DNA of 25,928 nt from a virus. This document shows positions 480 through 15,034 of this stretch, piece by piece. The notes below the pieces were generated by a model. It was not told the origin of the DNA, ran no database searches, and saw nothing but the letters and a program-made list of their open reading frames with translations. The position numbers and the translations under genes are program-made. Position 1 is the first letter of the stretch. Each line of letters starts with the position of its first letter. The stretch is from positions 1-25,928 of the IMG/VR virus record IMGVR_UViG_3300044616_001775; one strand, written 5' to 3'.

Positions 480-509
480 ACTATAGTCTATTCTACTATT
501 TATTGTCAA
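480..509 (-). promoter_or_regulatory. Conserved array promoter P1 (for 255-446)
   Basis: On the minus strand: -35 TTGACA (509-504), 18-bp spacer, -10 TATAGT (485-480). The spacer sequence is also conserved among the copies, including an AATAGTAGAATAGAC core, which suggests an operator as well as a sigma-70-type promoter. Confidence 0.8.
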
Positions 510-591
510 TAGGTTTTAAAAAATATTTTGTACTGAATTTTGGTTAACTTTTCATACAGTACAAACAAGCAAGTAAAACAAAGAACCGCTT
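503..591 (-). repeat. Upstream flank repeat, type A, copy 1
   Basis: An 89-bp AT-rich block extends from the -35 box upstream to the previous gene's terminator. It is almost identical to 3241-3329 and clearly related to 12586-12673. Shared words include TTTTGTACTGAATTTT, a TTAACTTTT core and an AAGCAAGTAAAACAAA segment. It may act as an UP element or as a recombination boundary between cassettes. Confidence 0.8.
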
Positions 592-611
592 AAACTTTTG
601 TCTAAGCAGTT
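584..611 (-). terminator. Terminator after the ADP-ribosyltransferase gene
   Basis: An imperfect 12-bp stem (584-595 with 600-611, two mismatches) with loop TTTT. Read on the minus strand it is followed by CTTTGTTTTAC. It sits 26 bases past the stop codon at 637. Confidence 0.65.
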
Positions 612-636
612 GCAAGTTATTTATGAAGATTAATAA

Positions 637-1095
637 TTAAATTTCTTTTAAAACTATTGTATATTCTTCCCAGCCGTCTTTTTCGATGGAAATAACTTCA
701 AACCCGGTTAAGGGTAAGAACAATACTTCTCGTTCTTCAGGGTATTTAGAGAACTTAGAAATATCTCTCCCGGTTTTAGACTCAATCACAAGGGTAATCG
801 ATCTATTATCTGTTTTGGACAAGGGTACACCCAAGCAGTTGAATTTCTGAGCTACGACTTGGCTTTTGGATGTGGACATAAAGCCCATATCCCGGTAAAC
901 CTTACTGACCTTAAAAGTTGTTGATATTTCTGACTTGTCAAGGGTTAAGCCACGGTAGACTGTTCCTTTAAAGCATTTAACATTTTGTAAATCTTCAATT
1001 ATTTGTTCTACTGACTCATGATTTTTCCCGTATCTTAAAACCCGGTTGATTGAGCCGTAGTTTTGTTGAGTATATTGGTTTAATGTTGTAGTCAT
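637..1095 (-). CDS. Probable mono-ADP-ribosyltransferase (arginine-type ART fold)
   Basis: The protein has 152 residues, a single domain with no signal peptide, so it should act in the cytosol. The three signatures of R-S-E ADP-ribosyltransferases appear in order: an arginine strand (VYRGL, R48), an S-T-S strand (MGFMSTS, residues 74-76), and an E-x-E loop (YPEEREVLF, E121 and E123) followed by the usual closing strands (LPLTGFEVISIE). In this family the enzyme moves ADP-ribose from NAD+ to a protein side chain, usually arginine; T4 Alt, ModA and ModB do this to the host transcription and translation machinery. The size and full motif set suggest an active minimal catalytic domain. The start at 1095 follows a strong CAGGAGGCAGGCA site and promoter P2. 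Having its own strong early-type promoter fits a host-takeover or toxin role; the target is unknown. Confidence 0.82.
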   Translation of the reverse strand: MTTTLNQYTQQNYGSINRVLRYGKNHESVEQIIEDLQNVKCFKGTVYRGLTLDKSEISTTFKVSKVYRDMGFMSTSKSQVVAQKFNCLGVPLSKTDNRSITLVIESKTGRDISKFSKYPEEREVLFLPLTGFEVISIEKDGWEEYTIVLKEI

Positions 1096-1126
1096 TGCCT
1101 GCCTCCTGTTTTTTATTTATATAACT

Positions 1127-1156
1127 ACTATAGTCTATCCTACTATTTATTGTCAA
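1127..1156 (-). promoter_or_regulatory. Conserved array promoter P2 (for the ART gene)
   Basis: On the minus strand: TTGACA (1156-1151), 18-bp spacer, TATAGT (1132-1127). Spacer and flank match the other copies; the flank is type B. Confidence 0.82.
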
Positions 1157-1218
1157 GTAGTTTATGTACTGAACTTTTAAAAATATCTTTGTGTAACTAT
1201 TTTACGGTTGGGGATTTA
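1151..1218 (-). repeat. Upstream flank repeat, type B, copy 1
   Basis: This flank is shared with 2071-2150, 3699-3795 and 5239-5317. It contains GTACTGAACTTTTAAAAATA, then a TTTGTGTA core and TTTTACGGTTGGGGATTT. Unlike the other three copies, this one lacks the terminal HIP1 octamer. Confidence 0.8.
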
Positions 1219-1228
1219 GCCAAAAACG

Positions 1229-1260
1229 AAACCCCTGGACTAGCACTAGTCCAGGGGTTT
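1229..1260 (-). terminator. Intrinsic terminator after 1264-1425
   Basis: A 14-bp stem (1229-1242 with 1247-1260) with loop GCAC; the minus strand continues TTCGTTTTT. It is nearly the same hairpin as 205-237, differing in the apical bases. Confidence 0.82.
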
Positions 1261-1263
1261 TAA

Positions 1264-1425
1264 TCAGGAAGCGATCGCTCTCAATTCTTCATCTGAGAAG
1301 AATTTTGAGTATGGAGTACCCTGCCGTGAGCAAACCCACCCCGGTACTTTTTTATTTATATGCCTCTCTATTTTTGTGTGGAAAATATACACCACCCCGT
1401 CAAAAGTAAATTGCTGTCCTTTCAT
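1264..1425 (-). CDS. Small hypothetical protein
   Basis: The protein has 53 residues, beginning MKGQQFTFDGVVYIF and ending FSDEELRAIAS. The ATG at 1425 is preceded by AAAAGAGATAAAATC. The frame stays open upstream, but that part overlaps a separate short reading frame (1445-1510) that has the better ribosome-binding site. The composition suggests a small beta sheet (residues 5-20) followed by a basic segment and a C-terminal helix. No family is recognised. The HIP1 octamer at 1271-1278 lies inside the coding end. It is probably the second gene of a two-gene unit with the 21-residue frame. Confidence 0.55.
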   Translation of the reverse strand: MKGQQFTFDGVVYIFHTKIERHINKKVPGWVCSRQGTPYSKFFSDEELRAIAS

Positions 1426-1444
1426 GATTTTATCTCTTTTCTGT

Positions 1445-1510
1445 TTAATTAACTTCAGTGACATCAATGGCAATAAGCTGGGATTGACTGGTCTCAAATT
1501 CAATGAACAT
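1445..1510 (-). CDS. 21-residue micro-ORF or leader peptide
   Basis: The frame reads MFIEFETSQSQLIAIDVTEV plus N, then TAA. Its ATG at 1510 has the array-type ribosome site CAGGAGACACAA, the same element that starts the other cassette genes, and it is the first ATG after the promoter. The stop lies 19 bases before the start of the 53-residue gene at 1425, so it could couple translation to that gene. Whether the peptide itself matters is unknown. Confidence 0.4.
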   Translation of the reverse strand: MFIEFETSQSQLIAIDVTEVN

Positions 1511-1525
1511 TTGTGTCTCCTGTGT

Positions 1526-1573
1526 TTTTTGTTTATATATAAACTATCTTACTATTTATTTATTGCTAATAAG
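1526..1573 (-). promoter_or_regulatory. Decayed array promoter P3
   Basis: This region aligns with the conserved promoter, including the AATAAATAGTA core, but -35 has become TTAGCA and the -10 region reads TAGTTTATATATAA with altered spacing. It is either a weaker or a degenerating copy. Confidence 0.45.
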
Positions 1574-1587
1574 TTTTAGAAAAATAT

Positions 1588-2013
1588 TTATTTAAGAGTT
1601 ACTACACCATTACTGCAAACATAATCCATGACATTGCTGTAATCGCGTGTTCTGTTTTCGCCAATTCTCACCTTTATTTCTTTTCCTTCAATTCCCAAGA
1701 AATAATAATCTTTTCTTCCTACTCTAAATTGAGTATGTCCTTCACTTAAAAGACCAGATTCAAGAATAGACTTTATAGCCTTAATTTCTACCGATGTAAA
1801 GTGAATATTGCCCTTCACGGACTTAATCATGTTTTTTGTGATTTTACCCAATGCAGCTAACGAAGGTGCTAGAGATGCTTCTAATTTTTCTAAATCACCC
1901 TCTAAAGTAACCAACTGGTCAACATAAGATTTAATGCCGTCTGCAATAAGTTTTAATGTAGCTTTTATTTGGTGCTTGATAGTGCGGATTTGAAAGTTGA
2001 TTGTAAATTTCAT
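1588..2013 (-). CDS. Hypothetical protein sharing an N-terminal helical module with the sliding clamp
   Basis: The protein has 141 residues. The ATG at 2013 follows GGGAGACAGACAA and promoter P4; the 21 in-frame codons upstream are promoter and leader sequence. Residues about 10-48 form a charged amphipathic helix pair (KATLKLIADGIKSYVDQLV, then LEGDLEKLE) that is clearly homologous to residues 8-42 of the clamp gene at 3817-5181. The remainder (about 49-141) is a different domain with a short helix (TSVEIKAIKSILESGL) and a beta-rich end (RKDYYFLGIEGKEIKVRIG) not found in the clamp. This suggests a mobile N-terminal adaptor, perhaps for self-association. No catalytic motif was recognised. No terminator is obvious after the stop. 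Confidence 0.65.
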   Translation of the reverse strand: MKFTINFQIRTIKHQIKATLKLIADGIKSYVDQLVTLEGDLEKLEASLAPSLAALGKITKNMIKSVKGNIHFTSVEIKAIKSILESGLLSEGHTQFRVGRKDYYFLGIEGKEIKVRIGENRTRDYSNVMDYVCSNGVVTLK

Positions 2014-2046
2014 TTGTCTGTCTCCCTGTTTTTTGTTTATATAACT

Positions 2047-2076
2047 ACTATAGTCTATTCTACTATTTATTGTCAA
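2047..2076 (-). promoter_or_regulatory. Conserved array promoter P4 (for 1588-2013)
   Basis: On the minus strand: TTGACA (2076-2071), 18-bp spacer, TATAGT (2052-2047). Confidence 0.82.
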
Positions 2077-2150
2077 GTAGTTTGTGTACTGAACTTTTAA
2101 AAATATCTTTGTGTAGCTATTTTACGGTTGGGGATTTGAGCGATCGCTGT
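2071..2150 (-). repeat. Upstream flank repeat, type B, copy 2
   Basis: This copy ends in HIP1 (2140-2147) and continues with a GTAGTA...GTTGACATCA segment that is also present in the copy at 3699-3795. Confidence 0.8.
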
Positions 2151-2222
2151 AGTAATTGTTGACATCAGATTAAAATATGAGATCCAAGTACCAATTTTAA
2201 TTTACGTATTTGAACATAAAAT

Positions 2223-2250
2223 AACCGCTTAAACTTTCATTTAAGCGGTT
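2223..2250 (-). terminator. Terminator after 2261-3184
   Basis: A perfect 11-bp stem (2223-2233 with 2240-2250) begins 11 bases past the stop codon. The minus-strand tail is ATTTTATG, so the U-tract is modest. Confidence 0.7.
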
Positions 2251-2260
2251 ACAAGTTATT

Positions 2261-3184
2261 TTAATCACTAAACTTGTATTTTTCTAGCATTAAATCATTG
2301 TGTTTTTTTAAAAACTGGATACAGTGATCCCCAATCACATTTTCAGTTGCGAAACAATTGTCCTCTACTGGTGACAAATCAAGTCTGCCTTTGTAGACTT
2401 CCCCATCTACAAAATGGATTGAAAAATTTAACTTATCATACCCAGCATGACCCCATTTTGTCTTTTTATATATTTCTCTAATTGCATTATTTACAGAGTG
2501 AAAGCTAGAAAATTTAGCACCTTCAGCAATGGTTGGCGCACCTTCATGACACTCAACAGTTATGTAATCTAAGTTGCCGTCATTAACAGAAGCTCCTGTG
2601 TAGTCACCTTTAATTAAATTAATTTCAGCTTTTTTACGTTCCTCATTTCTTTTAAATTGTTCTTCTTGTTTTTTCCGTTCATGTTTTATAGTCCAATTTT
2701 CTGGATCTGTAGCAAATAAATAATTATCTTGAGCATTCTCAGCTTCGCGGCTGTTTAACTCAATAGCCATACCATTCTCATGGTATGCTTTTAGAGATTC
2801 GTTCTGTTGAATAAATCTGTATTTGTAGGGGTGAGCGGGAACTACAAAACAGGCTTGTAATGGCTCAAATACTATTTGTAAATCGTCTATTATTCTACCG
2901 TTTATAGATAGAATACCAGGCACTACAAAATCTATTTCTTCTTGAGATAGTTTTCTAACTATCTCAATTTTAATGCCTGTGCAATGGAAGTAATCAACCA
3001 TTGCATCACTATGATTTTGGTAAGTATGGTAATCATTAGTTATCTCTTTTACTTGGTTTATAAAGGGACCGCCAACCCATGAAACAACGATTGTTTCACA
3101 TAATCTGTTTTCGGTTTTGACCGAAAACTTAACACCTTTAAATGCTTTGTTAAGTGCTTTTTTGATCTCTTTTGATGTAGTCAT
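2261..3184 (-). CDS. Two-domain accessory protein with a probable LPD29-like N-terminus
   Basis: The protein has 307 residues. The ATG at 3184 follows GAGGAGACAGACA and promoter P5. The N-terminus (SKEIKKALNKAFKGVKFSVK, then a TIVVSWVGGP strand at about 32-41) matches the pattern I know from the large polyvalent protein-associated domain LPD29, seen in phage and plasmid accessory proteins: helix, GVKFSV strand, then V-x-W-x-x-GP. A central charged helix (about 170-193, rich in K, E and R) links to a C-terminal beta-rich domain (about 205-295) containing DYITVECHEGAP and a GEVYKGRLDL segment, also polyvalent-protein-like. No catalytic residues are evident. Such domains are thought to travel with proteins that protect or prepare incoming DNA; a role here is inference. 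Confidence 0.6.
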   Translation of the reverse strand: MTTSKEIKKALNKAFKGVKFSVKTENRLCETIVVSWVGGPFINQVKEITNDYHTYQNHSDAMVDYFHCTGIKIEIVRKLSQEEIDFVVPGILSINGRIIDDLQIVFEPLQACFVVPAHPYKYRFIQQNESLKAYHENGMAIELNSREAENAQDNYLFATDPENWTIKHERKKQEEQFKRNEERKKAEINLIKGDYTGASVNDGNLDYITVECHEGAPTIAEGAKFSSFHSVNNAIREIYKKTKWGHAGYDKLNFSIHFVDGEVYKGRLDLSPVEDNCFATENVIGDHCIQFLKKHNDLMLEKYKFSD

Positions 3185-3217
3185 TGTCTGTCTCCTCTGT
3201 TTCCTGTGTATGTAACT

Positions 3218-3247
3218 ACTATAGTCTATTTCACTATTTATTGTCAA
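3218..3247 (-). promoter_or_regulatory. Conserved array promoter P5 (for 2261-3184)
   Basis: On the minus strand: TTGACA (3247-3242), 18-bp spacer, TATAGT (3223-3218). The spacer has one GAAATAG variant, as in the two plus-strand copies. Confidence 0.82.
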
Positions 3248-3329
3248 TAGGTTTTAAAAAATATTTTGTACTGAATTTTGGTTAACTTTTCGTACAGCAC
3301 AAATAAGCAAGTAAAACAAAAAACCACCT
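3241..3329 (-). repeat. Upstream flank repeat, type A, copy 2
   Basis: An 89-bp block nearly identical to 503-591. It differs mainly in the last bases, where it merges into a different terminator stem. Confidence 0.82.
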
Positions 3330-3350
3330 AAACGTTCTGTCTAGGTGGTT
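3322..3350 (-). terminator. Terminator after 3375-3641
   Basis: A 12-bp stem with one mismatch (3322-3333 with 3339-3350). The minus-strand tail is TTTTTTGTTTTAC, a good U-tract. Confidence 0.8.
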
Positions 3351-3374
3351 AAATACTTATTTTATTTCAATGTT

Positions 3375-3641
3375 TTATTGTAATAAAACATTGGAGTTTA
3401 AAAACTCTTGGGCATAAGGATCGTCGATCCCTAAGTCATGCCCATAATCGTACCCTTCAAACATACCATTACCGTATGTTTTCTCATAATATGAAGAAAG
3501 ATTATAGTTTTCGCAATCTTTCTTTTTTTCTGCTCTCCGTTCAAAAGTGCAGTGATTTAAGTAAGGGCGGGTTATTGCTGTTTCGTAGTATCCTTCAGAT
3601 ACTAGAACGAAATTACCCGACTCAGTTATGTCTACTTTCAT
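3375..3641 (-). CDS. Small hypothetical protein rich in Tyr, Asp and Glu
   Basis: The protein has 88 residues, beginning MKVDITESGNFVLVSEGYY. The ATG at 3641 is preceded by GGGAGACAAGACA and promoter P6; the longer upstream frame is promoter sequence. The first 20 residues look like a beta hairpin, then a basic-acidic linker (FERRAEKKKDCENYN), then a Tyr- and Gly-rich segment (YEKTYGNGMFEGYDYGHDLG) and a short C-terminal helix. It may be a small phage modulator, but no family is recognised. It is a monocistronic unit between P6 and the terminator at 3322-3350. Confidence 0.6.
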   Translation of the reverse strand: MKVDITESGNFVLVSEGYYETAITRPYLNHCTFERRAEKKKDCENYNLSSYYEKTYGNGMFEGYDYGHDLGIDDPYAQEFLNSNVLLQ

Positions 3642-3674
3642 TGTCTTGTCTCCCTGTTTTTTGTTTATATAACT

Positions 3675-3704
3675 ACTATAGTCTATTCTACTATTTATTG
3701 TCAA
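3675..3704 (-). promoter_or_regulatory. Conserved array promoter P6 (for 3375-3641)
   Basis: On the minus strand: TTGACA (3704-3699), 18-bp spacer, TATAGT (3680-3675). Confidence 0.82.
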
Positions 3705-3795
3705 GTAGTTTGTGTACTGAACTTTTAAAAATATCTTTGTGTAGCTATTTTACGGCTGGGGATTTGAGCGATCGCTGTAGTACCTGTTGACATCA
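3699..3795 (-). repeat. Upstream flank repeat, type B, copy 3
   Basis: This copy includes HIP1 at 3768-3775 and the GTTGACATCA tail shared with copy 2. It overlaps the hairpin that follows the clamp gene. Confidence 0.8.
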
Positions 3796-3810
3796 ACTCA
3801 ACAGGTACTA
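3778..3810 (-). terminator. Hairpin after the sliding-clamp gene (weak terminator)
   Basis: A perfect 13-bp stem (3778-3790 with 3798-3810), loop CATCAAC, placed 7 bases after the clamp stop. No U-tract follows on the minus strand (CAGCGATCGC follows instead), so it may stabilise the mRNA end rather than terminate transcription. Confidence 0.5.
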
Positions 3811-3816
3811 CCATTT

Positions 3817-5181
3817 TTAATTTCTTAAATATTCAGCACGCAAGTAACCATTACCATTCTCAGTAACTGTTAAGCAGTTATTTTTATATTCATAAGGTAA
3901 AGTACATGGCGTGTGAAACCCAAACTTGTTTATGGTGACAACTTTATTGTTATCTATAGGCATGATTGGACCAATTCCTAGTATTATTTTATCTTTGGTA
4001 TTAGAACTGATTGTGATTAACCCACTAGTTAAATGCTCCCAAGAAATACTTATATCATAATTAGTCTTGGCTTTTTTTGTCTTTTTGGGTGTTGGTATAC
4101 TTTTGAGCGCATTTACTAAATACTTAATATTAACTGTAGTGCTAACATCTTCAGTATTTCCAATATTGCATCCAGTTACAGAACCTTCAGTATTTTCAGT
4201 CTCAATTAATATTTGACCATTCTTAGTAGTCAAGAAGCAAAATTCTTGAATTTTGCTTAGTATTTCTAATTCTTTTAATAGTGGTTGTTTGTCCACTAAC
4301 ATAATGTTATTTGATATTTTCCAGTGGAAAGAACTGAGATTGTTGATATTATTGATTAAGTTTTGAACCACTGTAGTACCGTCAGACAAACAAAATTTAA
4401 TCAGATTGTTTTCCTGATCAATGTGTAAAGCTAAAAGCCCCGATTCAGGTAAATATTTAACAATATCAGGAGACACGATAAACTTAGTTTTGTCTCCTAA
4501 CATCACTGTTGAGAATTTGCCAATAAAATGACCGTTACATCCGATTACTACTGAATTTAATTTGTCAGCACGAACGTGAATACCCGTCAAAGAAATTTTA
4601 CTTGTATCTTTGCTGACGAATTTACTAGCTTGTTTTAAAACAGTAATAAAATCAGGACTATTAACTATTACTTGTTGAGTATATTTTGACTCTGTATTTA
4701 TTAGTTCCTTGTTTTCTAAAAGGCCAAAACTAAATTTACCTTTGTATCCATACTCAATTATTAGTTTTTCATTAAAAGTAATTGATACTTCTTCGTCTGG
4801 TAGCAACTTGACAAATTTATTTAATAATTCCAGCCATACAGTTACTTGTGCTTGTACTTGCGTAGGATTGTTGATTTGAATTTTTTTAGACAAGAATACT
4901 TGACTGTCTTTACATATTAAGTTTAATTGGTTGTCAGCTACTACTAGATTTACCTCTTTAGCCCCTGTCTTAACCAAAGATGCAAGAGCATTACTAAAAG
5001 CCATGGAATTAAGTTTAATTTTCAATGTAGGCTGTACTGGACTCGGAATATTTGCTTTTTCCAATAATTCTAGTTGGTTTTCTAACTGGATTAACTGGTC
5101 AACGTAGCGTTTTATTTTAAATTCTGTAATTAGTCTTAGTGTGGCATTTATCTGGTTTTTTAAAACATTAATTTGATACAT
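3817..5181 (-). CDS. dnaN-like: DNA polymerase III beta-like sliding clamp with an N-terminal helical extension
   Basis: The protein has 454 residues; bacterial DnaN is about 370-380. Residues 1-46 are an additional amphipathic helical module (NATLRLITE, RYVDQLIQLE) shared with the protein at 1588-2013. Residues about 52-155, 170-290 and 300-410 read as three clamp domains. Domain 2 shows the hallmark order FITVLKQASKFVSKD, SLTGIHV, then SVVIGCNGHFIGKF, equivalent to the ATDGHRLA strand of DnaN. Domain 3 carries NIKYLVNALKSI. The C-terminus ends YLRAEYLRN rather than the usual M-P-M/V-R-x. A clamp ring tethers polymerase to DNA; phage versions free replication from the host clamp. The ATG at 5181 follows AGGAAAC at a rather long spacing. 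It is driven by P7. The clamp assignment is firm at fold level; the role of the N-module is unknown. Confidence 0.8.
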   Translation of the reverse strand: MYQINVLKNQINATLRLITEFKIKRYVDQLIQLENQLELLEKANIPSPVQPTLKIKLNSMAFSNALASLVKTGAKEVNLVVADNQLNLICKDSQVFLSKKIQINNPTQVQAQVTVWLELLNKFVKLLPDEEVSITFNEKLIIEYGYKGKFSFGLLENKELINTESKYTQQVIVNSPDFITVLKQASKFVSKDTSKISLTGIHVRADKLNSVVIGCNGHFIGKFSTVMLGDKTKFIVSPDIVKYLPESGLLALHIDQENNLIKFCLSDGTTVVQNLINNINNLSSFHWKISNNIMLVDKQPLLKELEILSKIQEFCFLTTKNGQILIETENTEGSVTGCNIGNTEDVSTTVNIKYLVNALKSIPTPKKTKKAKTNYDISISWEHLTSGLITISSNTKDKIILGIGPIMPIDNNKVVTINKFGFHTPCTLPYEYKNNCLTVTENGNGYLRAEYLRN

Positions 5182-5214
5182 AGTTTTTGTTTTTTGTTTC
5201 CTGTGTATGTAACT

Positions 5215-5244
5215 ACTATAGTCTATCCTACTATTTATTGTCAA
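5215..5244 (-). promoter_or_regulatory. Conserved array promoter P7 (for the clamp gene)
   Basis: On the minus strand: TTGACA (5244-5239), 18-bp spacer, TATAGT (5220-5215). Confidence 0.82.
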
Positions 5245-5317
5245 CAGGTTTATGTACTGAACTTTTAAAAATATCTTTGTGTAACTATTTTACGGTTGGG
5301 GATTTGAGCGATCGCTA
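5239..5317 (-). repeat. Upstream flank repeat, type B, copy 4
   Basis: Same block as 1151, 2071 and 3699, ending in a HIP1 octamer. It lies between the divergent promoters P7 and P8. Confidence 0.8.
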
Positions 5318-5360
5318 GACTATTGCACCTCAATGATCCTCAAACTCTTGTAAATCAAGG

Positions 5361-5392
5361 GTTTTAGGAATTTAAAAAATATTTCCTAAAAC
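5361..5392 (+). promoter_or_regulatory. Inverted repeat abutting the P8 -35 box
   Basis: A perfect 10-bp inverted repeat (GTTTTAGGAA at 5361-5370, its complement at 5383-5392) ends three bases before the -35 hexamer. It is a possible operator or activator site specific to P8; the other copies keep only the inner half. Confidence 0.45.
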
Positions 5393-5395
5393 CTA

Positions 5396-5425
5396 TTGAC
5401 AATAAATAGTGAAATAGACTATATT
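5396..5425 (+). promoter_or_regulatory. Conserved array promoter P8 (for 5461-6132)
   Basis: TTGACA (5396-5401), 18-bp spacer, TATATT (5420-5425). This is the same module as the minus-strand copies, inverted, with GAAATAGAC in the spacer. Confidence 0.82.
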
Positions 5426-5460
5426 AAGAGTATCAACAAAAAACAGAAGGGACAAAAGAA

Positions 5461-6132
5461 ATGACTACTTTAAAATTTACAAGAAAAGCCGCTGGACATT
5501 ACACTGCTACTACACCCTGGGGTGTAGTAGAAATAAAAAAAGCTGATACCGACAAGTGGTATGTTTATTTCCCGTGCGGAAAAACTTCGTATCGCCGGAG
5601 TTACGACGCTGCTAAAACCTGGGCTAATAATTATCTGGACAAGCAGACTAAACAGCCCACAGTAACCGCAGCACTAAAAAAAGCTGAATCTAAATCTAAT
5701 CCCACCACACAAACATTAAGAACAAAGCTAAGTCAAGCCAATGCTTACGTAATAGGTGCTGACTATTTAGGATGTATCAATACAGGTAAATCAGCCTGTA
5801 TTATCCATATTGTTGTGGATAACAAAGACTATTACCTTGTTGGGCTTAACGGGGCAATAATGGATACTTATTTTGAAAAGACTGTTTCCAGTATAAGAAA
5901 ACAATTGATAGAAGACCGAACAGTTAAATCTTATTATCACAAGACATTTGGAGAAGTAAAAATATACACCACCTTTAGTCAATCCGAAAAGGAATATAAC
6001 CGCATAAATGACGCTGTTAAATCAGCTAATCTTGATGACCGCAAAATTATCAACGAAGCAAAAACCAAGATCAAAAACGGAACAGCTACCATAACAGAAT
6101 ATTTTGCGTTATCTGATCGTGGAGTCATTTAA
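5461..6132 (+). CDS. Hypothetical accessory protein
   Basis: The protein has 223 residues. The ATG at 5461 follows AGAAGGGACAAAAGAA and promoter P8. The N-terminal 60 residues (FTRKAAGHYTATTPWG, then DTDKWYVYFP and SYDAAKTWANNYLD) look like a small beta sheet with a closing helix, a layout common in short phage proteins. A Lys/Thr/Gln-rich linker (about 61-85) leads to a second domain (about 90-190) with strands ACIIHIVVDNKDYYLVGL and a helical end. No transmembrane or signal segments are present and no catalytic motif is recognised. It is one of only two array genes with the plus orientation; the intergenic stretch with the clamp gene holds two back-to-back promoters. The function is unknown. 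Confidence 0.7.
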   Translation: MTTLKFTRKAAGHYTATTPWGVVEIKKADTDKWYVYFPCGKTSYRRSYDAAKTWANNYLDKQTKQPTVTAALKKAESKSNPTTQTLRTKLSQANAYVIGADYLGCINTGKSACIIHIVVDNKDYYLVGLNGAIMDTYFEKTVSSIRKQLIEDRTVKSYYHKTFGEVKIYTTFSQSEKEYNRINDAVKSANLDDRKIINEAKTKIKNGTATITEYFALSDRGVI

Positions 6133-6220
6133 TAGATGCTTATGATCCTGGTGACTATATCGGGGTTATAAGTATTCATTAAACTTTTAAAAATTCAGTA
6201 CAAAATATTTTTAAAACCAC

Positions 6221-6250
6221 TTGACAATAAATAGTGAAATAGACTATATT
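6221..6250 (+). promoter_or_regulatory. Conserved array promoter P9 (for 6283-6483)
   Basis: TTGACA (6221-6226), 18-bp spacer, TATATT (6245-6250). The upstream flank shares words of the type A and type B blocks (CTTTTAAAAATTCAGTACA and AAAATATTTTTAAAAC). Confidence 0.82.
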
Positions 6251-6282
6251 AAGAGTATCAACAAAGCACAGGAGACAGACAA

Positions 6283-6483
6283 ATGACAGACTTATTTAAT
6301 CTTTGTGAACTCCGCTTCCGGTTATACCGGAAAAGACTAATTACCATAAAACTGTTTTTTATTAAGGTTGAAATCTTTGTACCAAAGATTTATAAGAGCT
6401 ACATAGAAACCGCCCAGGAAATGTACGATTACTGCTGGGCGGAGTATGAAAAGTCAGGCGACCCTGACGACATCCCGTTCTAA
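6283..6483 (+). CDS. 66-residue protein ending in an SSB-like C-terminal tip
   Basis: The protein starts MTDLFNLCEL, has a strongly basic and hydrophobic first half (RFRLYRKRLITIKLFFIKV), then a short helix (ETAQEMYDYCWAEYEK) and ends SGDPDDIPF. The last residues match the conserved acidic-IPF tip of bacterial single-stranded DNA-binding protein (DDDIPF in E. coli), which docks partners such as RecO, PriA, RecQ, primase and exonuclease I. There is no OB fold, so this is not an SSB. The ATG at 6283 follows CAGGAGACAGACAA. It lies between promoter P9 and a strong terminator, as a complete single-gene unit. Mimicry of the SSB tail is an inference from the tip alone. A short internal hairpin (TTCCGG...CCGGAA) lies near the 5' end of the coding region. 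Confidence 0.7.
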   Translation: MTDLFNLCELRFRLYRKRLITIKLFFIKVEIFVPKIYKSYIETAQEMYDYCWAEYEKSGDPDDIPF

Positions 6484-6496
6484 TAAATAATCACTT

Positions 6497-6530
6497 AACC
6501 CGGTTAAAACTTAATTTAACCGGGTTTTTT
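6497..6530 (+). terminator. Intrinsic terminator after 6283-6483
   Basis: A perfect 12-bp stem (6497-6508 with 6515-6526), followed by TTTTTT. Confidence 0.88.
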
Positions 6531-6563
6531 ATTATCATTGGTAGTAGTTATCTATTTGTCAAA

Positions 6564-6905
6564 ATGACTAACTATCAAGTTCGATATGGGAACAATGTCA
6601 AAAAGCACAAAAAAAAGTGCCGTAACGCACACACAAGAACCTATGGTATTTGCTGTGTGTGCATGATTAATAAATCTGAACAGGTGCATCACTCCAGTTA
6701 TAGGCGGTCAGGAGACAGGTATGGGATTAATATTTTCCCTGTTTGTAAGCACTGTCATAAAAACGCCTGCCATAGTCCTAAAAACTGGATTGTTCACCCC
6801 ATAAATCCAGAATGGAAGAATCACAATACCCCTGAGTTTACAGCCCGCTTAAAACGAAATTATCAACGGTTACGGAAATTAAAACTCAATAAAAAACCCT
6901 CTTGA
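6564..6905 (+). CDS. HNH-family endonuclease-like protein
   Basis: The protein has 113 residues. After a very basic N-terminus (KKHKKKCR) it shows a zinc-ribbon HNH layout: C30-x-x-C33, VHHSSY with H42/H43, an N56 in GINIFPV, and CKHCH (C61, C64, H65). HNH proteins cut DNA with a metal-bound His core; small free-standing ones in phages act as homing nucleases or assist packaging. The C-terminus is Lys/Arg-rich (KRNYQRLRKLKLNKK), consistent with DNA binding. The ATG at 6564 has no obvious Shine-Dalgarno and no array promoter, unlike its neighbours, so expression may be low or dependent on read-through. The stop lies within the stem of the terminator for the converging gene. Confidence 0.78.
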   Translation: MTNYQVRYGNNVKKHKKKCRNAHTRTYGICCVCMINKSEQVHHSSYRRSGDRYGINIFPVCKHCHKNACHSPKNWIVHPINPEWKNHNTPEFTARLKRNYQRLRKLKLNKKPS

Positions 6906-6919
6906 TTGTCAAGAGGGTT
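6891..6919 (-). terminator. Terminator between convergent genes 6564-6905 and 6935-7111
   Basis: A perfect 11-bp stem (6895-6905 with 6909-6919), followed on the minus strand by TTTTTTATTG. It mainly serves the minus-strand acidic protein gene. Confidence 0.83.
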
Positions 6920-6934
6920 GATATTTGCTATGGA

Positions 6935-7111
6935 TTAATATTCGTCATCGTCTTCTTTATTGTCTTCATCGTCTTCATCGTCTTGATCATCTTCATCATC
7001 ACCACCATACAGTTCATGAATGCTACTAGCTTCACGAACTACTGCACATCTGCCCAATGCAGGTACATAACTGATGGCTTGTGCCTTTCCATTTTTCCAT
7101 CTATACTTCAT
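6935..7111 (-). CDS. 58-residue protein with a highly acidic C-terminal tail
   Basis: This small gene is read from an ATG at 7111 preceded by CAGGAGACAACAACC and array promoter P10. The protein begins MKYRWKNGKAQAISYVPALG; the last 22 residues are almost all Asp and Glu (GGDDEDDQDDEDDED, then NKEDDDEY). The basic N-terminus plus acidic tail gives strong charge separation. Small acidic phage proteins can mimic DNA and block restriction or nucleoid proteins (for example T7 Ocr), but no sequence similarity to those is claimed here. Its full promoter, ribosome site and terminator make it very likely a real gene. Confidence 0.75.
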   Translation of the reverse strand: MKYRWKNGKAQAISYVPALGRCAVVREASSIHELYGGDDEDDQDDEDDEDNKEDDDEY

Positions 7112-7137
7112 GGTTGTTGTCTCCTGTTGATATTATC

Positions 7138-7166
7138 AGTATAGTCCATCTACTATTTATTGTCAA
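7138..7166 (-). promoter_or_regulatory. Conserved array promoter P10 (for 6935-7111)
   Basis: On the minus strand: TTGACA (7166-7161), 17-bp spacer, TATACT (7143-7138). It lies directly downstream of the tmk stop codon. Confidence 0.8.
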
Positions 7167-7184
7167 TAGGTTTTAGAAAAATAT

Positions 7185-7811
7185 TTATAGAGACAAGTGT
7201 TTCCGCAAAATCTCTTGTACAACTTCTTGTACAACTTCTTGACTACCACTACCATCTACTCGGATAATTGAAGATGGATGAGACAAGTACAAATCTGCAT
7301 AACCCGCTTGTACCCGACGGTGAAAAGTTATTGTCTCTTGTTCAATACGATCTAATTTAGCTTGTCCGCGCTTACGCAGTAAACCTACCTCTACATCCAC
7401 GTCTAACCAAATAGTTACATCACTCAGTAAACCTCCTGTGGCAATCTGATTGAGATTATTAATTAGACTCATGTCTAAGCCCCTACCATAACCTTGGTAA
7501 GCAATAGTAGAGTCTGTATAGCGATCGCACAGAATATATTTTCCCATAGCCAAGTTTGGTTTTAGCTCTTCTTGGATATGCTGCACTCTGTCAGCAGCAT
7601 ACAATAGAAGTTCTGTAACTTCATTTATGGGCTTATCTACTGGCTTTGACAGTAATAACTCTCGTAAGCTTTTCCCTAATTCTGTTCCTCCTGGTTCACG
7701 GGTTAGCATTACAGGTATACCTAGACTTTCTAGCCATTGGGAGCAAAGGTGCATCTGGGTAGTTTTCCCACAACCCTCTACCCCTTCAAAAACAATTAAC
7801 TTACCATTCAT
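7185..7811 (-). CDS. tmk: Thymidylate kinase
   Basis: The protein has 208 residues, the normal Tmk length. It phosphorylates dTMP to dTDP with ATP, feeding dTTP synthesis in the cytosol. Visible motifs: P-loop GVEGCGKTT (residues 10-18), REPGG (38-42), the DRY signature (D96-R97-Y98) with STIAYQGYGRG after it, and a C-terminal lid region (RKRGQAKLDRIEQE, about 145-158). All key residues are intact, so it should be active. It reads like an ordinary cyanobacterial Tmk and may have been acquired from a host. It follows the primase-helicase gene on the same strand with a gap of 104 bases and could be co-transcribed with it. Its own ribosome site is weak, and no terminator separates it from P10. 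Confidence 0.95.
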   Translation of the reverse strand: MNGKLIVFEGVEGCGKTTQMHLCSQWLESLGIPVMLTREPGGTELGKSLRELLLSKPVDKPINEVTELLLYAADRVQHIQEELKPNLAMGKYILCDRYTDSTIAYQGYGRGLDMSLINNLNQIATGGLLSDVTIWLDVDVEVGLLRKRGQAKLDRIEQETITFHRRVQAGYADLYLSHPSSIIRVDGSGSQEVVQEVVQEILRKHLSL

Positions 7812-7840
7812 ATTAGTAGATGTAGGCGCAGCCCAAGAGA

Positions 7841-7908
7841 GACACCAGTATTTAAGGTGTCGTTTTTTAGATTTTTACCAGACATCTAGTGGGTTGTCCC
7901 CACTAGAT
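7841..7908. other. Two hairpins between the primase-helicase and tmk genes
   Basis: One is GACACC/GGTGTC (7841-7846 with 7856-7861), followed on the plus strand by GTTTTTT. The other is a perfect 10-bp stem (7884-7893 with 7899-7908, loop TTGTC). Neither has a U-tract on the minus strand used by the flanking genes, so they may be processing or stability elements, or an antisense terminator. Confidence 0.4.
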
Positions 7909-7915
7909 TATTCCA

Positions 7916-10900
7916 CTAAACCTTAGTAGCCCGCTTTAGTATGCGAATAATAAGGTGAGCGGGGATAGTTAGAAACTGTCTGGTTTTTGTTCCGTTAGGA
8001 TTTTTTTGCAGAACGCTGATCACATAACCCGTTTCATTGACCTCTTTAACTGGTCCTTGGATTGGGTGATTGAGTTCTTTTGCCCGGTCATTCACAAAAA
8101 ATTCAACCACATCATCGGGTGATGGGTTGTCTTGTGGAACAGGTGACGGGTCAGAAGTGTTGTCCTGGGTAGGGTTTGGGGAAAGTGACGGCAGATCCAA
8201 TACTACATCCCCTCTATATATAGGATCTATGTTCTTATCCTCTGTTGGGGACATGGAAGAAGGGAGACTAGAATTATTATTTCTAATTTCCATTGGAGTA
8301 TAAGAGTTCTCGTCACTACCCTCAAAAGCCTTATCTAGCAAGACTTCTGACCCGTCACTGCCTTCTAAACTTTTCCCGTCATGTGTCAAGGAACTGGATA
8401 AAAGTAGTTCGTGAGTGGGAATTTCGTCGTCTAAACCCGTCTGCCGCAACCGCAACCCAACAATAAATTTGCCAGTATTGGTGGCTTTGTGTTTCACTCC
8501 CCAACCCAAAACTGAGTTGCACAACTCAATTAAGTCAGGACTAAAGGTCTTAGACGCTTTGGCTTGGCTACCTGTCTCTGCACAGTGTCTAGAATAGCTG
8601 CCGAAGAGGGTCTTAATGAGACCACCATCGGCACCTTCATTCTTGTTACTACCTACAGGGGTCATGGCTGTGGGGTCGTAAATCACTTTCTCGTTTAACC
8701 AGTCAGCTAATGAGTCTACACGCATTCGGTTAACCCAGAACTCAAGGGTGCATTCTGGTATCTCTTGAATACCAGACAACACCTTGCGTACATAGTCGTC
8801 ATCGAAATTAAGAACGTGATTGGTGAAAGCTGCTAATTCCGGCTCAAATAACTCTTCAAGGTTTTTCCGCTTGGCTATCCCAACAGTGTTGTTACATGGT
8901 ACTGTAATCACTCGCCGCTTAACCCTACTAGCACTGTCACCTGCAAATACAGGTAAGTTAGAACAGACTGCCACCATGCCGTCATAGCGGTAGCTAAAGG
9001 CCTTTTGACCTTTGTTCTCAGCACGTAGCAAATCCTCCCCGGTTAAAGAGAGGAATTTCCCTAGTTTTCCGGTTGCTTTATCTTCATCAGGAAACAGCAC
9101 AAGCCGCTTCTGGTAAGCATTAGCAGCTTCAAAGTTGTTATTGCACCAATCATCAAGGGTACTGGTATGCACGTTCTGAGAACCGATTAAAGACACAAGT
9201 AATCGGGTAAACGTACCCTTACCTGTGCCACCTAAACCAATTAAGTGCAAAAACTTCTGTAGGTCTGAGCGACCTTTGATGACAGCATTGCAATAGCACA
9301 TCAACAGATCCTTAATCTGCTGATTGCCACCGCTTAAGTGGTTTAAAAACTCATTGATGTTATCCCAGTTTGTGGCAGCTCTGTCATATTCTCTGGGTAG
9401 TTGCCATGTCAATCTGTATCCAGGAGCATGAGGCATTAACTTTCCAGTTTGAATTTCTAAGACACCATTTCTAAATGGGAGTAGTTCTTTAGGCGATCGC
9501 TCTACCCAAGTACGCTGAATCAAGTGATGTCTAAGCATCCTGGTAACATTAGTAATGTACCCATCACCACCGTAGCCAGTGTATCCTTTGCCTTCAACAA
9601 TATTCATTACTGCACTGGCAATGAACTGATCAGTCTCCACAGCCCAAACGCCTGGACTGTCTGCTTGGTAGCGCATCCAACGCAAGCTGGCATTGTTGAA
9701 TGCAAGAATATCTCGGTATTCTTCGGCGATTTCCGCTGCCAAAATATCAGGAGTAGGGATTTTCCGCTTCTCCTGAAAGTGTAATTCGAGTTTTAGCTTG
9801 TCCAACCTTGTTTTTACCTCTTTGAGAGATTTTTTTAGTTCCTTGGGGTTTTTGGCGATTAAATCATCTAAACCCTTACCATGTTCAGGTTTCCACCGCA
9901 TTTCCAGTAGATAGGTCTCACTATCTTTTAATAGATAGTGAAATCTTCTATTAGCTTTCAGAACAGCCTTGACGGCTGTTTTTTTGGTGTCTCTGTCCAT
10001 TGCCAGGATCATAGCAGATCCGTCTCCAGTAAATTGCTCAAGGGCTGGGTTGATCTCTTTTTTCCCCCCACAGGAACATCCATAAAGAGCGATCGCGCAT
10101 AACCCAGTGCTTAAACCTGACAACGCTTTTTTACCACCCTCTGTCAAGAATCTAGGCACTTCTGGCATTTCTTTAATAGCATCCCAGAAGCTACCGCCCA
10201 TGGGAATATCAGTTCCCCACAATTTATTAATTTTTTCCCTGATGGACTTAGGCACGGGTGGTAAGTATGGTTTATCCCCAATTCCCTTGGGAGCAAAATA
10301 TGAATATTCCCTGTGCTTAGACGGGATGTTGACAATCACCTGCCAAATACTCCCATCTTCATTTTTCAAGAATGCTCCTAATAATTCATTCTTGGAAATA
10401 TTGTGTGTGAATCGGCTTTTTTTCCATCCCAAGGTCTCATGAATAGGGTACGAAGCGTCCATTCCATCAGTCCATTCGCACTCTCGATGGAACTCAACAG
10501 CACTTTCAAATAGTGCCGGGTCAATTCCACTCCCTGTAGTAAAATCCGTAAAAACTTTTTTCTTAAATTGTTCAAAAATGTCTTGACAATTGTTATTTGA
10601 TTGCGCTATATTAATAGCATGATTTGAATTATTCATATCATTCTCCATCGTAATGTTGTTTAACTGACTTGAATTTTTCACGTTATTCTCCATTGTGACA
10701 CTGTTTAATTTATTCATATTGTTCTCCTTAGTAATGGTAGTGTTTAAGTTATTCATGTCATTCTCCTTAGTGATGGTAATGTTTGAATTGTTCATGTCAT
10801 TTTCGATTGTGGCACTGTTTAAATTTAGATTATTTATTTGATACCCCTTGGTATCGGTAGTGTTTAAATTTTTCATGTCATTTTCTACTGTGGTAGTAGT

Positions 10901-10987
10901 GTTTTTCACTTGATACCCCTTGGTATCGGTAAGATTTAATTCAGTTGAGTTCATGGTGTTCTCTGTGTTTAATTGAGTTAAGTTCAT
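7916..10987 (-). CDS. Replicative primase-helicase (DUF3854 TOPRIM-like plus D5/SF3 helicase)
   Basis: The protein has 1023 residues from the chosen start. Residues 1-130 are an Asn/Thr-rich repeat tract. Residues about 275-375 carry a DUF3854/TOPRIM-like core: LTEGGKKALSG and ILAMDRD, acidic metal-binding motifs of primases. About 500-700 is a D5_N/DUF5906-type superfamily 3 helicase: RNGVLEIQTG, then Walker A GLGGTGKGTF (about 584-592), LVLFPDED as Walker B, and CSNLPVF as the sensor region. After a Pro/Ser-rich linker (about 935-965) comes a small beta domain. Such proteins start replication of phages, satellites and plasmids by priming and unwinding. The ATG at 10987 is preferred (AAAGGATAAGACC upstream); the frame is open to 11095. 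Several in-frame starts lie further inside. Confidence 0.9.
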   Translation of the reverse strand: MNLTQLNTENTMNSTELNLTDTKGYQVKNTTTTVENDMKNLNTTDTKGYQINNLNLNSATIENDMNNSNITITKENDMNNLNTTITKENNMNKLNSVTMENNVKNSSQLNNITMENDMNNSNHAINIAQSNNNCQDIFEQFKKKVFTDFTTGSGIDPALFESAVEFHRECEWTDGMDASYPIHETLGWKKSRFTHNISKNELLGAFLKNEDGSIWQVIVNIPSKHREYSYFAPKGIGDKPYLPPVPKSIREKINKLWGTDIPMGGSFWDAIKEMPEVPRFLTEGGKKALSGLSTGLCAIALYGCSCGGKKEINPALEQFTGDGSAMILAMDRDTKKTAVKAVLKANRRFHYLLKDSETYLLEMRWKPEHGKGLDDLIAKNPKELKKSLKEVKTRLDKLKLELHFQEKRKIPTPDILAAEIAEEYRDILAFNNASLRWMRYQADSPGVWAVETDQFIASAVMNIVEGKGYTGYGGDGYITNVTRMLRHHLIQRTWVERSPKELLPFRNGVLEIQTGKLMPHAPGYRLTWQLPREYDRAATNWDNINEFLNHLSGGNQQIKDLLMCYCNAVIKGRSDLQKFLHLIGLGGTGKGTFTRLLVSLIGSQNVHTSTLDDWCNNNFEAANAYQKRLVLFPDEDKATGKLGKFLSLTGEDLLRAENKGQKAFSYRYDGMVAVCSNLPVFAGDSASRVKRRVITVPCNNTVGIAKRKNLEELFEPELAAFTNHVLNFDDDYVRKVLSGIQEIPECTLEFWVNRMRVDSLADWLNEKVIYDPTAMTPVGSNKNEGADGGLIKTLFGSYSRHCAETGSQAKASKTFSPDLIELCNSVLGWGVKHKATNTGKFIVGLRLRQTGLDDEIPTHELLLSSSLTHDGKSLEGSDGSEVLLDKAFEGSDENSYTPMEIRNNNSSLPSSMSPTEDKNIDPIYRGDVVLDLPSLSPNPTQDNTSDPSPVPQDNPSPDDVVEFFVNDRAKELNHPIQGPVKEVNETGYVISVLQKNPNGTKTRQFLTIPAHLIIRILKRATKV
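10634..10987 (-). repeat. In-frame repeats carrying repeated ribosome-binding sites and start codons
   Basis: This is the 5' part of the primase-helicase gene. Start codons of the same frame occur at 10987, 10954, 10876, 10795, 10756, 10717, 10681 (GTG) and 10636, with spacings of 33, 78, 81, 39, 39, 36 and 45 bases. Several are preceded by AAGGAGAATGAC or GGAGAATGAT at normal spacing. The encoded unit is about 13 residues of the type MNNLNTTITKEND. A second repeat, TDTKGYQ, occurs twice. Confidence 0.75.
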
Positions 10988-11094
10988 GGTCTTATCCTTT
11001 TGATTTTGTTTTTTCGTCTGTGTCCACAAGAGGACTTTGTGGATTTTCGGTTCAAGAAGAGTTTGTTTTGTTCGTGGACTCTTCTTAGTTAACA

Positions 11095-11440
11095 ATCACT
11101 AAGATTGTTGTTTGCACTATACTAACAAATTATTTTTTAAACTCCAAACCTGTAATTGTTCATTCCTTCTGGATTTGCATTTTTTTGTCTCCTCTTTTTG
11201 TTTGATAAAGCCGATGTTTGCCGCATCGGCTTTTATGTGTTTATCATATCATGCCTAAGCCATTATGGCAATAAGTATCTGGTAATAATTTAAGTATAAA
11301 TAGTTAAGTGTGGCTGCTTATAAGTATTCAACAAAAAGTGCTATTTCCCACATTTTCCACATTTCCCAAAAACTTAAAATATTTAAAAACCCATTGGTGG
11401 TTGTTGTCCACCAATGGGTCTTGTTTTTTGATGTCGTTTC
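11095..11440. other. Non-coding leader region upstream of the primase-helicase gene
   Basis: There is no convincing long gene here. On the minus strand, a TATAGT -10-like box lies at 11116-11121 without a clear -35. A hairpin (11207-11216 with 11224-11233, AAAGCCGATG stem) is followed by GAGGAGACAAAAAA and a six-codon frame MQIQKE whose stop overlaps the start of an eight-codon frame MNNYRFGV. These could be leader peptides, but the evidence is thin. The stretch 11234-11385 is AT-rich, with TTTCCCACATTTTCCACATTTCCC-like direct repeats at about 11345-11368. Confidence 0.4.
11384..11419 (-). terminator. Terminator after 11441-11797
   Basis: A perfect 12-bp stem (11389-11400 with 11408-11419), followed on the minus strand by TTTTTAAAT; the plus side also has CTTGTTTTTTG, so it may work both ways. 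Confidence 0.85.
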
Positions 11441-11797
11441 TTATTCCCCTTTTTTAGCTTGTTTATTTTGCAACCGTTTTAGCCGTCTTTTTTCGTTGTA
11501 CTTACGCATATATTCGCGCTGCTTTTCCTTCTGCTCTTCTGTCATGTTTTCTACCCATCTTTGCCTAGACTCGCGCTGCCTTAGTAGCTGGTCTTCCGTC
11601 ATGTTAGCAGCCCACTCACGATTGGCTTTACGCTGCTTTTCTTTTTGTTCTTCTGTTAAGTTGGCAAGCCATTCTCGTTTAGCGTGCCGCTGTTTTTCCC
11701 GTTGTTCCTCACTCATATTCTTTGTATATTTGAGTTTACGCGCCTTGCCTTTTTTGGTAGCGTTGTAACGCGCTTGGGTTTCTGGATAGTAAGTCAT
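11441..11797 (-). CDS. Basic helical protein with four 19-residue tandem repeats
   Basis: The protein has 118 residues and begins MTYYPETQARYNATKKGK. The ATG at 11797 has AAAGAGGACAAC upstream; the frame opens further with a TTG, judged not to be the start. From residue 27 a 19-residue unit repeats four times, each starting N-M/L-T/S-E-E/D-Q and continuing with EKQR and REW (starts at N27, N46, N65, N84). The tail is Arg/Lys-rich (KRRLKRLQNKQAKK). The pattern predicts a long, highly charged helix that could bind nucleic acid or form a coiled coil. It has its own array promoter (P11) and terminator. I do not recognise a family; similar low-complexity tails occur in homing-nuclease-associated phage proteins. 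Confidence 0.68.
   Translation of the reverse strand: MTYYPETQARYNATKKGKARKLKYTKNMSEEQREKQRHAKREWLANLTEEQKEKQRKANREWAANMTEDQLLRQRESRQRWVENMTEEQKEKQREYMRKYNEKRRLKRLQNKQAKKGE
11491..11719 (-). repeat. 57-bp coding repeats in the basic helical gene
   Basis: Four diverged units of 57 bases encode 19 residues each, beginning at residues 27, 46, 65 and 84 of the product. DNA identity between units is moderate, protein pattern is strong. Confidence 0.7.
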
Positions 11798-11824
11798 GTT
11801 GTCCTCTTTCAATCTCCAAATATC

Positions 11825-11853
11825 ACTATAGTCTATCTATTGTTTTTTGTCAA
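11825..11853 (-). promoter_or_regulatory. Array-type promoter P11 (for 11441-11797)
   Basis: On the minus strand: TTGACA (11853-11848), 17-bp spacer ending ATAGATAGAC, TATAGT (11830-11825). The spacer is only partly conserved, so this is a diverged member. Confidence 0.75.
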
Positions 11854-11883
11854 CGCGACTAAGAATTGTGCTTAAACACAAAA

Positions 11884-11910
11884 AACCACTTAGATTTTTT
11901 CTAAGTGGTT
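11884..11910 (-). terminator. Terminator after the two-gene operon 11911-12538
   Basis: A perfect 11-bp stem (11884-11894 with 11900-11910) with a T-rich loop; TTTTTTG follows on the minus strand. The stem abuts the stop codon of the gene at 11911. Confidence 0.85.
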
Positions 11911-12075
11911 TTATTTTTGCTCCCATCTCACAAAACACCCATTAAACTCAGGGTGACTTTTTAGAAAGTCGTCTTTGAGCGCGATCGCACTCATCAAGTC
12001 CCTGGCAATCCAGGGACTACAAAAGATTATTTTGCTGGTCTTGTGTTGACCAGCCTTGAGTTTAAATCGGAACAT
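11911..12075 (-). CDS. Small hypothetical protein, second gene of an operon
   Basis: The protein has 54 residues, beginning MFRFKLKAGQHKTSKIIF and ending GCFVRWEQK. The ATG at 12075 is chosen because CAGGAACAAAAAT lies just upstream; the frame is open ten codons further, inside the previous gene. The start overlaps the end of the upstream gene by 14 bases, typical of translational coupling. It appears to be a small alpha/beta protein with a basic first strand. A HIP1 octamer lies within it. The function is unknown. Confidence 0.6.
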   Translation of the reverse strand: MFRFKLKAGQHKTSKIIFCSPWIARDLMSAIALKDDFLKSHPEFNGCFVRWEQK

Positions 12076-12538
12076 ATTTTTGTTCCTGTTTTTTGATCCA
12101 CTCAATGACGGCTAAGGCAGCCGTCCAAAAGTTATCTTTGTCTTCCATGTAAGTAGCGACTATAAAAAGGTCGGTTTTCCAGTTTGTTTTTTCAGTATTC
12201 GGTGGAGGGTTTAGGCAGTTTAACTCTTCTCTCAAAAATTCCTTTACTTCTTTGCAAGTTAAAGGAAGTCTATTTAAGTTCTTGGGTGGCTGTGGAAACC
12301 ACCCATGAAATATTGCTCTATAACACTTGAATTTGGCTATATTTTTGGTTTTGTGTAATATTGTCGCTAAAACATTTAGCGACTTAGCAAACACCACTGT
12401 AATAGTTGTTGTCAGCGGGCTGCTAACTATTTTATGGGTAAACCCATTAACTGTTTCCCAGAACTTTTTATTTTGTTTTATGAATTTTTCTGCTGATGCT
12501 ACATCAGTAAATGTTATTGCTGTCAATTTGTAATTCAT
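12062..12538 (-). CDS. Hypothetical protein, first gene of an operon
   Basis: The protein has 158 residues, beginning MNYKLTAITFTDVASAEKF. The ATG at 12538 follows AAAAGGAGACAAG and promoter P12. The first 55 residues predict a beta-alpha-beta start (TAITF, a helix AEKFIKQNKKFWE, then TTTITVVFA). A middle segment is basic and aromatic (KCYRAIFHGWFPQPPKNL), and the C-terminal 40 residues are helical with several Trp (FWTAALAVIEWIKKQ). No catalytic motif or membrane segment was seen. It is translationally coupled to the 54-residue gene. I do not recognise the family. Confidence 0.65.
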   Translation of the reverse strand: MNYKLTAITFTDVASAEKFIKQNKKFWETVNGFTHKIVSSPLTTTITVVFAKSLNVLATILHKTKNIAKFKCYRAIFHGWFPQPPKNLNRLPLTCKEVKEFLREELNCLNPPPNTEKTNWKTDLFIVATYMEDKDNFWTAALAVIEWIKKQEQKYVPI

Positions 12539-12563
12539 CTTGTCTCCTTTTGTTCATATTAAT

Positions 12564-12592
12564 AATATAGTCTATCCTACTATTTATGTCAA
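12564..12592 (-). promoter_or_regulatory. Conserved array promoter P12 (for the operon 12538-11911)
   Basis: On the minus strand: TTGACA (12592-12587), 17-bp spacer, TATATT (12569-12564). One base is deleted in the spacer compared with most copies. Confidence 0.82.
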
Positions 12593-14392: not shown

Positions 14393-14671
14393 TTATGCTA
14401 TAGTAGAATCTCCAACCTTGTTAAACCTGGTGGCATTTGCAGGAACGCTGCCGGGTCTTATTTGCAATTCATCTGCTATTAATTCTGCTATTTTTCTTGC
14501 AGTTCATTCACTATCAAATGTGTTTAACACAGGATCGTTGCCAACAATAATATTATACCATTTTCCTGTCAGAATTAGTGCTATTGATACACCTTCGTAA
14601 TTGTATTTTCCATTTTTCACCTTTTTGTCATCAGAAGTATTACGCCATTTTACGGAAACCAGCGATCGCAT
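14393..14671 (-). pseudogene. Small gene interrupted by an in-frame TGA
   Basis: The frame starts at ATG 14671, which overlaps the stop of the XRE regulator gene as TAATG, suggesting translational coupling. It reads MRSLVSVKWRNTSDDKK, then YEGVSIALILTGKWYNIIVG and NTFDSE, and meets TGA at 14506-14504. The same frame then continues for 36 codons of protein-like sequence (TARKIAELIADELQIRPG, ending VGDSTIA) to TAA at 14395-14393. The helix after the TGA looks like the natural continuation. It could be a point-mutated gene, a sequencing error, or stop read-through; a 55-residue product is made if TGA is obeyed. An upstream ATG (14689) inside the regulator gene is also possible. The family is not recognised. 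Confidence 0.55.
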
Positions 14672-14928: not shown

Positions 14929-15034
14929 AGTCACTGGTTGGTATTAAGTTACTAATAATATATCAAAGAAAATTGCATATTTCTACAATTATCATTTATT
15001 TTACTATTTAAAAAATATTGAAACCCTTGATCTA

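Follow-up and report, generated by a model that had tools for sequence, protein, structure and literature searches.

The closest described systems include the promoter-early stem-loop (PeSL) cassettes of T4-type phages (Arbiol 2010, Comeau 2014, as described in PMC4503421 and PMC3950731), in which repeated promoters lie between small genes, some with a terminator directly upstream, and exchange takes place at the repeats. The virus HGTV-1, as cited in PMC3950731, carries a repeated motif made up of a TATA-box-like region and an inverted repeat. In cluster K mycobacteriophages, the SAS/ESAS sites are thought to bind a DNA-binding protein (PMC3203893), and in cluster A mycobacteriophages one repressor acts at many stoperator sites scattered over the genome (PMC9283540).

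Here we describe a window of 25,928 bp (the whole stretch of DNA that was analysed) from one IMG/VR virus record, IMGVR_UViG_3300044616_001775, whose gene content includes terminase, primase, thymidylate kinase, clamp-like and head genes. As in PeSLs, its promoters are repeated between small genes, some with a predicted terminator directly upstream, and there are eleven of them, host-like in matching 11 of 12 consensus bases and presumed early. Unlike the phages with PeSLs, the window phage is not T4-type by its terminase (best match phrog_979), each of its promoter copies carries a separate 9-bp predicted operator that shifts and inverts, and a same-strand terminator is predicted directly upstream of only five of the eleven (509, 1156, 2076, 3247 and 11853). 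HGTV-1 is alike in that most genes of one arm are preceded by a conserved promoter-like motif that includes an inverted repeat, but that virus is archaeal with a TATA-box promoter, whereas the window phage has bacterial sigma-70 boxes. Like the SAS/ESAS elements, the sites are repeated before many small genes; SAS, however, is tied to the translation start, while the window element is part of the promoter, some 30-45 bp ahead of the start codon. Many copies of one predicted operator per genome are a feature shared with the cluster A phages and with phage P1, where the C1 repressor alone serves many scattered operators. Stoperators differ in that they also lie inside transcription units and are asymmetric, whereas the window sites lie in promoters and are near-palindromic. 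By analogy, the system may work as PeSL-type promoter cassettes joined to a multi-operator regulon. Our preferred reading, to which we give a probability of about 0.58, is that these are early-gene cassette promoters used by the host polymerase, that a phage regulator at the palindrome most likely represses the set, and that recombination enrols genes in it.

Promoter copies and the genes behind them

The eleven promoter copies listed in a preliminary description of this DNA were all found at the positions named there, which for the minus strand denote the downstream end of each -10 box (Table 1). As that description also held, they sit before genes: in 11/11 cases a start codon that opens a reading frame follows within about 45 bp, and the leaders are mostly 25-40 nt. 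The -35 and -10 boxes are near-consensus for sigma-70 at a spacing of 17-18 bp, and the eleven sites have 0-3 mismatches to the block, compared with none below 6 mismatches in Markov-shuffled sequence. The heptamer CTACTAT occurs 22 times in the window against 3.7 expected. The head-gene half of the window holds none of the eleven copies, and in a 100-kb relative (G002) the copies are confined to 51.7-63.2 kb. A decayed twelfth copy had been reported near 1526; it is indeed a mutated member, but of a recurrent long-spacer variant with about four extra spacer bases, which is intact in several relatives. In the genome collection, the exact full-block pattern gave no match, and a looser pattern gave many scattered matches, among the matches listed, that are probably due to chance. 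In virus contigs, the loose pattern mostly met a single site in each contig, and these sites are probably sigma-70 promoters of the ordinary kind.

Table 1. Promoter copies, genes and related features, in window coordinates unless a contig is named; promoter copies are called in the text by the coordinate of their -35 end.
Feature	Position	Strand	Remark
Promoter copy, TTGACA-18-TATAGT	480..509	-	before F8; predicted operator ATAGACTAT inside
Promoter copy	1127..1156	-	before F3, ADP-ribosyltransferase-like gene
Mutated long-spacer promoter copy, TTAGCA ... ATAGTTTAT	1536..1569	-	
Promoter copy	2047..2076	-	before F5
Promoter copy	3218..3247	-	before F17
Promoter copy	3675..3704	-	before F13
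Promoter copy	5215..5244	-	before clamp-like F10; divergent partner of copy 5396
Promoter copy	5396..5425	+	before F16
Promoter copy	6221..6250	+	before F2
Promoter copy, 17-bp spacer, ATGGACTAT	7138..7166	-	before F1
Promoter copy	11825..11853	-	before F0; orthologs give the cleanest conservation test
Promoter copy, 17-bp spacer	12564..12592	-	before F6
F8, 63 aa	255..446	-	no function assigned
F3, 152 aa	637..1095	-	ADP-ribosyltransferase-like; PF01129 1.4e-13; PF03496
F5, 141 aa	1588..2013	-	N-terminal module in common with clamp gene F10
F17, 307 aa	2261..3184	-	LPD29 domain
F13, 88 aa	3375..3641	-	no function assigned
F10, 454 aa	3817..5181	-	DNA polymerase processivity factor / beta-clamp-like
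F16, 223 aa	5461..6132	+	no function assigned
F2, 66 aa	6283..6483	+	no function assigned
F1, 58 aa	6935..7111	-	acidic tail
F0, 118 aa	11441..11797	-	basic helical repeats
F6, 158 aa	12062..12538	-	no function assigned
XRE/HTH_3 protein	14671..14934	-	candidate regulator, beside terminase
Second promoter family	G002 14.0-17.7 kb (L085); G013 36.3 kb; G024 40.1 kb; G025 38.0-42.2 kb		

The ADP-ribosyltransferase-like gene F3 lies in a shuffled cassette, and its product possibly targets the host. The clamp-like F10 has an N-terminal module, about 45 aa long, in common with smaller proteins of differing length, namely F5 in the window and the product of 16472-17020 (L085) in G002. Small Cys/His-rich proteins, HNH-like by eye, are encoded at 6564-6905 in the window, there without an operator promoter, and at 36939-37280 in G002. 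In the latter contig, a single open frame of 5772 aa, probably tail-related, follows the head genes (73511-90829; L088-L089).

A conserved palindrome within the promoters

The preliminary description had argued from the conserved spacers, and from a direct repeat of CTACTAT about 15 bp apart, that a dedicated regulator probably reads these promoters. The direct repeat is complete in only 5/11 copies (509, 1156, 2076, 3704 and 5244) and was ruled out as the operator. Conservation of the spacer is confounded as proof of a regulator, as whole intergenic cassettes have been copied within the window: inside the groups 1156/2076/3704/5244 and 509/3247, identity is 86-99% over upstream flanks of up to 70 bp, so that the repeated unit extends beyond the promoter, spacer conservation within the window can stem from copying, and the copies of one phage, with their flanks copied along, are not independent. 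While the original argument is weak in the form given, the claim that this promoter set carries a regulator site is supported by other evidence, namely a palindrome that is kept in diverged spacers, in different registers and, in one relative, in inverted form.

Across phages, the best-conserved piece of the spacer is ATAGACTAT, which adjoins and overlaps the -10 box and is exact in ten of the eleven window copies, copy 7166 having ATGGACTAT instead. In relatives, the left spacer halves differ while the 9-bp palindrome ATAG-A/T-CTAT is kept. Orthologs of F0 allow this to be followed site by site, as no other window copy closely matches the flanks of the F0 promoter. In 17 distinct orthologous upstream regions, which were extracted by gene anchor and not by motif, with queries stemming from motif-bearing genes and with F0-like paralogs (some of them with mutated sites) excluded, TTGACA (6/6 positions) and GATAGACTAT (10/10 positions) are invariant, compared with 1/10 positions kept in the 10-nt left spacer and 0/3 among the last three -10 bases. 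Poor -10 tails such as TATCGT and TATGTT thus stand beside an invariant 9-mer. The 9-mer is also kept beside unrelated left spacers in contigs G020 (TTGACATATTATTAATGG) and G021 (TTGACTTTTATTTGTGG); four G021 promoters have it inverted and shifted by about 7 bp (TTGACAAAAA-ATAGTCTAT-CCACTATTAT). Its start lies 4-5, 9, 11, 12, 13 or 16 nt past the -35 hexamer across contigs, a few register-5 and -15 entries being opposite-strand artefacts.

Relative to a second-order Markov expectation, ATAG[AT]CTAT sites number 10 against 0.8 in G002, 10 against 0.5 in G001 and 10 against 1.6 in G021; the least excess is seen in G025, where 4 sites against 1.2 expected fall inside the shuffled range. The excess is clear in most operator-bearing genomes, with the sites mostly just upstream of genes. 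For G002, where this holds for 10/10 sites and called genes, the objection that the block is a mere dispersed repeat at non-promoter sites can be dismissed. In the more distant G028, a search for ATAG[AT]CTAT found 0 sites, and a longer operator pattern searched in G029 found no match. On these comparisons, ATAG-A/T-CTAT is best read as a predicted operator for a dedicated regulator.

The long-spacer form with about four extra bases (register 16; L101, L103, L108, L112, L113, L114 and L119) keeps the 9-mer and has no good -10 at 17-18 bp, and from their sequence these promoters could be weak or activator-dependent. They bear on an alternative that we consider unlikely, namely that an activator or an RNA polymerase-associated phage factor reads the element and the set is switched on together; a weak -10 at 17 bp (TAGACT/TAGTCT), or else a 22-bp spacing, could need help, and the F0 orthologs with poor -10 tails and invariant 9-mers would fit as well. 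The window copies, however, with their consensus matches at 17-18 bp, should need no activator, the site overlaps polymerase contacts, and a search of the operator-bearing records for sigma70 region 4 (PF04545, up to E 0.01) yielded no match. The latter result also led us to reject a phage sigma factor of the sigma70 type as the reader of the promoters and, together with the near-consensus boxes, suggests that the host polymerase is used.

Exchange of genes between promoter copies

Gene order behind the promoters differs among contigs. An example is the F3 promoter of G002, whose upstream side matches window copy 2076 (241/251 identical) and whose gene side matches copy 1156 (437/472), with F5 and F7 absent in between; it appears to be a crossover between copies 1156 and 2076. 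An identical upstream region with an unrelated gene behind it was found in 8/47 operator pairs compared with 25/437 others (Fisher one-sided p 0.009), the pairs being non-independent and some of the other cases looking like gene-calling differences; the 148 pairs of the crossover comparison are likewise not independent, as they include near-identical contigs. This upstream-identity test was used instead of adjacency counts, which showed little contrast as a test of shuffling (27/32 against 66/66). The crossover and these counts indicate that the window unit is also a point of gene shuffling, and that recombination between promoter copies has swapped the genes that follow, which is also seen in T4 PeSL cassettes. 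Gene exchange, like the promoter-like sites and the conservation, multiple registers and inversion of the operator, is directly supported.

Promoter copies that are recombination points, with near-identical flanks within copy groups, would also fit a reading without any regulator, in which an extended -10 promoter for the host sigma factor was spread by gene conversion and shuffling, its spacer hitchhiking. We consider this unlikely as well: in diverged phages the 9-mer persists beside altered left spacers and -10 tails, and several registers and an inversion relative to the boxes would not be tolerable for sigma recognition. The analysis thus tells copying and regulation apart as reasons why phage promoters are repeated. 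If a phage regulator does act at the palindrome, as we prefer to think, we tentatively suggest that the predicted operator rides mobile promoter cassettes, that genes landing behind them join a phage-wide switch, and that over evolution the operator may have been moved and flipped inside the promoter with control kept.

Proposed control, candidate regulator and host

In the mechanism proposed here, we infer the use of the host sigma factor, the existence and identity of a regulator, repression and timing. The cassette promoters would serve a phage gene region that is probably early, where host RNA polymerase carrying its main sigma factor would read TTGACA/TATAnT and transcribe a short leader followed by a single gene. 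A phage-encoded DNA-binding protein would occupy the palindromic operator within the promoter, normally overlapping the upstream edge of the -10, and would most likely repress the whole set together, because a bound protein would cover RNA polymerase contacts. The set could in this way be switched off once early expression is over, or be kept silent in a lysogen-like state, which neighbouring Ant/KilA-N-type proteins could relieve. Recombination between promoter copies would swap the downstream gene, so that a new gene enters the regulon.

A candidate for the regulator is the XRE/HTH_3 protein encoded next to the terminase. It is conserved in operator-bearing phages where the terminase region could be compared, and its predicted structure (pLDDT 88) has an XRE fold, with RM controller proteins as best structural matches; operators of RM controller proteins resemble TATAGTC, a likeness given no weight here. 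HTH_3 proteins are present also in G028 and G029, related contigs in which no operator match was found, and this counts against tying the XRE protein to the operator. The F0 protein was rejected as regulator, its model being all-helical with no significant PDB match. G002 encodes two other HTH proteins (at 11.4-12.4 kb), which are lambda-like, and KilA-N- and Ant-like proteins just before the array. These proteins and the many scattered sites within one genome would suit immunity operators of a temperate or plasmid-like phage, prophage-silent in the style of the P1 C1 or cluster A repressors, but this is the least probable of the alternatives, as the integrase family PF00589 had no match in 12 records, which leaves a prophage role unsupported, a resolvase-family match was found only in G021, and a sample of 390 genomes from the cyanobacterial class yielded terminase relatives with no more than 50% identity.

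The window terminase is 99-100% identical to that of several other virus contigs and 76-86% identical within a wider group, and it shares 44-49% identity with most of the more distant virus contigs. A DNA similarity search of isolated phages with the window gave no match, and isolate terminases reach at most 45% identity among the best matches listed, the first being those of Methanoculleus and Rhizobium viruses (39-45%). The HIP1 sequence (GCGATCGC), whose abundance we take to be a sign of a cyanobacterial host, occurs 14 times in the window, where 0.12 would be expected, and G002 has it 56 times; the host of this uncultured phage family is therefore probably cyanobacterial. For such phages, the palindrome provides a concrete and testable predicted operator; the controlled set would include the ADP-ribosyltransferase-like gene and the replication clamp, and the regulator, if found, would show one control over ever-changing small accessory genes.

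Finally, another part of the genome was seen to hold a second family of promoters, which has a conserved element of its own (TTGACA ... TTTCTTTAT-N4-TATTATAGAAA; Table 1). If true, this family (TTTCTTTAT ... ATAGAAA) would mean that the design is a general one and comprises two switches that work separately.
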